Made by a program: the position numbers and the translations under genes. The notes under the pieces are model-generated. The model was not told the origin of the DNA. It did not search any database and saw only the letters and a program-made list of their open reading frames with translations. From the NCBI RefSeq assembly GCF_003606385.1, contig NZ_CP032514.1:1302001-1366000 (forward strand): 64,000 nucleotides of DNA, read 5' to 3'. Shown one piece after another: positions 57,593 to 58,044 of this stretch. Position 1 is the first letter of the stretch, and each line of letters starts with the position of its first letter. Source of the stretch: Actinomyces lilanjuaniae. Lineage in GTDB: Bacteria > Actinomycetota > Actinomycetes > Actinomycetales > Actinomycetaceae.

Positions 57593-57713
57593 GCGACAAG
57601 TATTGCCCTACAACTTCGCGTATGACAAGTTTCGTCGTGTTGCGAGTTGATCACGACGATATGAGTCAGTCACTTGCCCTCTCTTGACGCAGGACGTACT
57701 CTTGTCGTATGAG
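57589..57713. promoter_or_regulatory. Divergent switch region with three operator-like repeats
   Basis: CTTGTCGCATG (minus, 57590-57600), CTTGTCATACG (minus, 57619-57629) and CTTGTCGTATG (plus, 57701-57711) share CTTGTC-RTA-G. A TTGACG hexamer at 57684 could be the -35 of the repressor promoter. TTGTCA within the second repeat could be a -35 for the leftward gene. This is a typical repressor/Cro control region. Confidence 0.6.
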
Positions 57714-58044
57714 CATGCAACCAAGTGTCGGCACGATCCCGCACTTCACGATCTACGACCGCCTGCGCAAGGCGCGGGAGGTCTCCGGGCTCGACCAGAC
57801 CGAGCTGGCCGAGCGCATCGGCGTCAGCCGGACGTCAGTCAGTTCTTATGAGGCGGGACGTATCGCCAGGCCGCGCAAGATCGTCCTCAACGCGTGGGGC
57901 CTGGCAACCGGCGTGCCGGTGCAGTGGCTGGAGACAGGGGAGGAGCCGACTCCCGGTCCCGGGGACGACGGAGCCCCGGCCGGTGGGGCCGGGGCTGGTG
58001 GCGGGCTCCCGCGGCTGGACTCGAACCAGCAACCGTCCGATTAA
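57709..58044 (+). CDS. XRE-family phage repressor, prophage (truncated) form
   Basis: 111 aa. HTH at about 19-50 (LRKAREVSGLDQTELAERIGVSRTSVSSYEAG), then a conserved RPRKIVLNAWGLATGVPVQWLE segment and a Gly/Pro linker. The last 14 codons lie in the att core, and the stop codon (58042-58044) is supplied by the tRNA gene. In the excised phage the same frame would continue past the core for 27 codons to LPAAA (16489-16571), giving 137 aa. The ATG at 57709 lies at the expected -10 position of one candidate promoter, so a slightly downstream start (57715) or a leaderless transcript is possible. Confidence 0.85.
   Translation: MSMQPSVGTIPHFTIYDRLRKAREVSGLDQTELAERIGVSRTSVSSYEAGRIARPRKIVLNAWGLATGVPVQWLETGEEPTPGPGDDGAPAGGAGAGGGLPRLDSNQQPSD
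58000..58039. other. attR core (40 bp)
   Basis: Identical to 16449-16488. It overlaps the 3' part of tRNA-Asn and the 3' end of the repressor gene. The wider similarity to the left end runs for 175 bp (57865-58039). Confidence 0.88.

Follow-up and report, generated by a model that had tools for sequence, protein, structure and literature searches.

A repressor gene crossing the attachment core of an Actinomyces prophage at tRNA-Asn: a likely integration-dependent immunity switch

The DNA considered here, referred to below as the window, is a stretch of 64,000 nucleotides from Actinomyces lilanjuaniae, and the features on which this account turns are collected in Table 1. It carries a prophage inserted at a tRNA-Asn gene and bordered by two copies of a 40-bp core, the longest exact match found there. 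That the insertion is real can be seen by comparison with relatives: in four of the seven genomes searched the left flank (up to window position 16087) and the tRNA side (from 58005) lie only 86–315 bp apart (86 bp in G004, 248–315 bp in G039, G045 and G035), and in the other three (G048, G003 and G020) about 1.8–7.5 kb separates them. Among the structural genes, the adjoining ORFs 26753–28672 and 28737–31859 match different parts of one profile, phrog_971 (tape-measure/lysin), and may represent either two genes or one split gene.

Table 1. Features of the prophage borders and of the repressor–integrase region (window coordinates).
Feature	Position	Strand	Evidence or remark
5'-truncated remnant of an older repressor gene (5' half gone)	16314..16448	+	alignment 168/179 identical; open frame from 16230 to tail stop
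att core, left copy (attL)	16449..16488	+	40-bp exact repeat
Prophage, 41,551 bp	16489..58039	+	PHROGs matched for terminase, portal, protease, major head and tail genes
3' tail of the viral repressor form, ends PLPAAA, stop TGA 16569–16571; separated from the gene in the prophage	16489..16571	+	in-silico junction
Tyrosine integrase, 262 aa, ends VTAAA; upstream ATG 16587 in frame	16750..17538	+	PF00589 4.6e-15; phrog_1 7.5e-38
Divergent excisionase / Cro-like HTH_17 gene	57281..57592	-	PF12728 7.5e-8; phrog_66 'excisionase and transcriptional regulator' 6e-7
Control region between the divergent repressor and excisionase genes	57593..57708	+	CGACAAG (57594), CTTGTCG (57701); putative operator, read from sequence
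Immunity repressor gene, prophage (attR) form, 111 aa, lambda-type HTH	57709..58044	+	PF01381 4.9e-11; phrog_2328 transcriptional repressor 1.7e-26
att core, right copy (attR)	58000..58039	+	40-bp exact repeat
tRNA-Asn (GTT), host attachment site	58003..58078	-	ARAGORN
TAA ending the prophage form	58042..58044	+	complement of A37, U36, U35 of tRNA-Asn

The original prediction for this locus was that an XRE-type repressor frame runs in phase through the core and ends, in the prophage, inside the tRNA-Asn gene after 111 codons, and both statements are borne out. The last codons of the repressor are antisense tRNA-Asn, translated as LPRLDSNQQPSD, and, because the stop of the short form is supplied by the tRNA anticodon itself (the complement of U35-U36-A37), the host could scarcely dispense with it. 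Joining 58039 to 16489, as an in-silico excision, turns residue 111 into Gly and leaves the frame open, so that the repressor becomes a protein of 137 residues ending GRAAPLPAAA, exactly the length and LPAAA end that had been foreseen. The likeness of this end to ssrA-type degradation tails, also proposed at the outset, holds at the level of sequence: the host tmRNA tag, ADNTRTDFTLAA, ends LAA, and AA ends are enriched among relatives (see below). A lone 27-codon open frame in such G+C-rich DNA would on its own be weak evidence. Three of the features by which integration-dependent immunity is recognised are nonetheless present: an attP core within the repressor's frame, truncation of the repressor upon integration by a stop lying in host DNA, and an ssrA-like end on the viral form.

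The neighbouring genes are likewise arranged as had been proposed and as in integration-dependent systems, where the integrase lies directly downstream and is often AA-ended: in the excised form the integrase is the next gene after the repressor, on the same strand, and a cro/excisionase-like gene is divergent. An AA end is absent from five of the 16 integrase ORFs picked, and the integrase of one same-genus prophage (G034) lacks it. The short motifs CGACAAG and CTTGTCG at the edges of the control region are possible operator halves, and occur elsewhere in the prophage as well (6 and 3 copies); no match to the BPs operator was found at two or fewer mismatches.

A protein-database search (E <= 1e-6) listed 60 homologues, the window's own protein included, and these were sorted by the core peptide LDSNQQP. 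Both predicted protein forms occur among these natural relatives. Fifteen stop no more than two residues past the peptide, giving QQPSD or QQPSG ends (13 PSD, 2 PSG), and none of the 15 ends in AA; a further 26 continue past the core, 19 of them ending in AA and 23 in A. The peptide is missing from 19 homologues, ten of which end in AA; P0032, P0050, P0051, P0054, P0055 and P0059 are AA-ended proteins without the tRNA-Asn peptide, perhaps belonging to other attachment sites. As background, ORFs of at least 100 codons were called mechanically in the window prophage and ten viral loci, and 17 of these 142 (12%) end in AA; in the window prophage the figure is three of 36 genes, with the integrase left out. 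Set against the 17/142, the 19/26 seen for core-crossing homologues is a marked excess (Fisher 4.6e-10), and merging similar tails still leaves AA in 14 of 20 (Fisher 9.3e-8). The AA end is not universal, being absent from 7 of the 26 homologue tails and from 6 of 14 junctions; other ends encountered were AVG (L120), RSA (L128), LFA (L134), RERAAL (L031), LALAS (G056) and the long tail of G023.

Viral contigs furnish further examples of both forms. Of 21 loci, 13 show the QQPxx-stop form and five read on, one lacks the core and two are unrelated (L029, and L034 and L035, respectively, all three being dropped). A junction-pattern search matched 43 stretches, among which ten contigs were judged by reading to have a repressor-like ORF with a tail; nine of these tails are distinct and five of the nine end in AA. 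The reading frame provides an internal control, since over all 14 junctions AA is reached in the repressor frame in eight cases, as against one in 28 for the other two frames (p 1.9e-4), or 2/28 at worst, the window's frame 1 having been stopped within the integrase ORF although it would reach the integrase's AAA. A partial control with eight junctions (7/8 versus 0/16) is a favourable subset, and the 14-junction set is used instead. A scan of genome contigs for the GG junction returned at least 118 stretches, mostly tRNA genes themselves reading QQP[SAT]G-stop, and no count was drawn from it. As viral-contig queries, the integrase gave no match, and the homologues P0007 and P0005 led to no closer phage. 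A further repressor-like set (L119, L136, L137, L143, L145, L120 and L134), with the linker ..GGAAGPSLPELDSNQQPAG, enters the same tRNA-Asn core; the tails seen in it are AVG and LFA, with no AA, and a profile scan of L120 gave weak BetR/HTH_3 matches.

One check proposed with the original prediction, namely a search of Actinomyces prophages for repressor genes ending in attR, was run, and succeeded in two prophages besides that of the window. When 213 genomes of the family were scanned for the pattern of the GG junction, four had it, all from Actinomyces: the window's own, G007, G023 and G034. On in-silico excision the repressor frame ends in AA in three of them, one being that of the window. 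In G034 the cores are 39 kb apart and the tail ends TIAA. The cores of G007 are about 35.6 kb apart; it was found by the junction pattern and gave no match in the repressor similarity search (E <= 1e-8). Its Brujita-like repressor (L319 1142–1561; 53%) crosses the core in a different frame, with a WTRTSNRPINSRMLCH end at attR, and its attL tail (L318 1022–1094) ends RIAA solely in that repressor's own frame 1; its integrase ORF ends AAAA. G034 and G007 are independent same-genus cases. The exception, G023, fails the check: it is a 4.9-kb remnant with a long tail lacking AA, and among the five ORFs scanned one is MerR/HTH_17-like and none is an integrase.

The closest relative of the G007 repressor in the window set is that of G048 (78%), which uses frame 0. 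G048 is 91% identical to the window beside the tRNA and has kept tail DNA (154/161) and integrase; an attL core was not found in the 60 kb read. It appears as a remnant of about 7 kb (L089–L091) whose integrase end and tail DNA are the same and whose repressor differs, an element apparently locked in and keeping that repressor. The repressor matches in G018, G020 and G003 are to fragments, and the one in G044 runs into the tRNA in a third frame; none of these was counted as an intact case.

Our reading is that the repressor gene, crossing the att core in frame, very probably constitutes an integration-dependent immunity switch, in which the long form would be unstable and the short form stable and active; the protein-level steps, long-form instability and short-form activity, are carried over by analogy from BPs as described in the accessible part of PMC4557955. 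In the excised phage the repressor would have 137 residues, and its tail, ending in AA, is predicted to target it for ssrA-type proteolysis (presumably ClpXP-type); integration would swap that tail for the stop in tRNA-Asn, giving a stable, active 111-residue repressor that may be expected to confer repression and immunity. The AAA-ended integrase would probably be kept scarce likewise, in which case lysis or lysogeny should hinge on whether the phage integrates while integrase is still present. On excision, with the divergent excisionase-like protein taking part, the tail would be joined on again and the repressor disarmed.

It could instead be supposed that the repressor gene contains the core only because tRNA-type att sites and repressor–integrase modules adjoin, both forms being stable and active and the tail an incidental read-through. 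A single GC-rich frame does easily stay open, and seven of the 26 homologue tails lack AA, but the excess of AA among these 26 over the 12% background, its absence from all 15 attR forms, and its tracking of the repressor's own frame, which holds even in the differing frame of G007, make this very unlikely. Nor does the reverse polarity seem credible to any but the slightest degree, namely that the repressor at work is the long viral form (or that this form has gained a function) and that truncation at attR weakens it. The accessible part of PMC4557955 does record that the long form of BPs binds DNA like the short form; however, the same source gives the other polarity for the published relatives, the long form here ends in a host-like degron, and the lysogen encodes only the short form, at a complete control region.

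A different kind of objection is that the switch was real in ancestors, while the window copy is a decaying prophage that makes neither excision nor repressor, so that nothing is switched now. Decay is seen nearby, in that near relative G048 is down to its small remnant with the attL core gone, the tape-measure matches of the window are spread over two ORFs, and its attL shows the decay of an earlier element. Against this, both cores are exact and the repressor, tail, integrase, excisionase-like and head/tail genes are all open, which leaves this explanation unlikely.

The older element just mentioned, of which the original prediction made no mention, is the repressor remnant lying directly left of attL; its frame continues across the core into the degron-like PLPAAA tail. 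At the attL of G023 (L087) there is a remnant of 86 bp, 95% identical to that genome's own attR copy, and at that of G007 (L318) about 20 codons resemble the repressor linker when read by eye; no older remnant is visible at the attL of G034. At three of the four attL sites, then, there are signs that the tRNA had been occupied before. In Mycobacterium abscessus, prophiT36-2a/b are two integration-dependent prophages at one tRNA whose repressors cross the core in different frames, and the accessible text of PMC9934374 argues that such prophages must differ in frame if they are to lie in tandem, as a same-frame neighbour would tag the repressor at the junction. The window departs from that pair in that the remnant at its attL shares the frame of the tail and is truncated, and such a same-frame fusion with a broken older gene fits what the argument expects, though one case cannot prove it. 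G007, for its part, has a frame-1 phage beside a frame-0 remnant with an SGK end. A doubtful extension would be that phages using the tRNA-Asn core form frame-compatibility groups, a same-frame newcomer in a resident's attR tagging the resident's repressor and so ending its immunity, and an other-frame newcomer sparing it; the window's attL would then be a takeover fossil and G007 a tolerated case.

Integration-dependent immunity has already been described in mycobacterial, Gordonia and Bifidobacterium phages and prophages, and the window is likely to be a new member, in Actinomyces and at tRNA-Asn. The original prediction knew of no description in Actinomyces phages, and a literature search, which left most subscription papers outside its scope, likewise found none joining "integration-dependent immunity" with "Actinomyces" and none on such a prophage by title; a tRNA-Asn site and a stop supplied by the anticodon are features we did not find described in the accessible parts of the literature examined. 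The switch would thus be extended to this genus and tRNA, where the active repressor is predicted to owe its stop to the host anticodon itself. In annotation, a DSNQQPSD end on a repressor can serve as a marker of attR, and the tail of that repressor should be sought at attL. Natural long/short pairs would be useful for lysogeny tests and as genetic tools, and serial use of one tRNA in two frames offers a second genus in which to test the proposal from M. abscessus that tandem lysogeny depends on frame.

As to known systems, the original comparison was with the architecture of the mycobacteriophages BPs, Brujita and Charlie; layout and homology do fit, but the kind is described widely in actinobacteriophages, beyond those three. 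As far as the accessible descriptions go, BPs and cluster G resemble the window in having attP inside the repressor gene, the integrase following on the same strand and a divergent Cro/RDF gene; they differ in host and in attachment site, which here is tRNA-Asn, and the viral repressor is longer by 33 residues in BPs (gp33, 136/103 aa forms; PMC4557955, accessible part) as against 26 in the window. Neither the repressor nor the integrase of Taheera, used here as a cluster G relative of BPs, has an AA end, unlike the window's, and published systems are not uniform in this respect, several M. abscessus repressors and integrases lacking AA according to the accessible text of PMC8092301. In-silico attP junctions of the Bifidobacterium breve prophages Bb423phi2 and 689b-1 restore ssrA-like repressor tails, as here, although these 18-kb prophages use tRNA-Met and have an 18-residue tail (PMC6109161, accessible part). 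Homology to characterised or predicted members is a further feature of the class: phrog_2328 is common to the repressors of the window, Brujita, Charlie, Doggs, Bipper and Wizard, and in blastp the window repressor is 56% identical to that of Wizard, 61% to Doggs, 60% to Bipper, 48% to Taheera and 27% to Charlie, with no direct match to that of Brujita, where only the phrog is shared; the integrase is 38% identical to that of Wizard and 39% to that of Taheera. Brujita and Charlie repressors end HAA and SAA, and the G007 and G048 Actinomyces repressors are 51–53% identical to Brujita's. The Gordonia phage Wizard, together with Doggs and the Mycobacterium phage Bipper, shares with the window the order excisionase/HTH, repressor, tyrosine integrase, the repressor identities extending over 70–97 aa; Wizard, an integration-dependent system whose attB is a tRNA-Arg rather than tRNA-Asn (PMC5559632, accessible part), has a repressor ending PAAA and an integrase ending SAA, to be compared with PLPAAA and VTAAA in the window.
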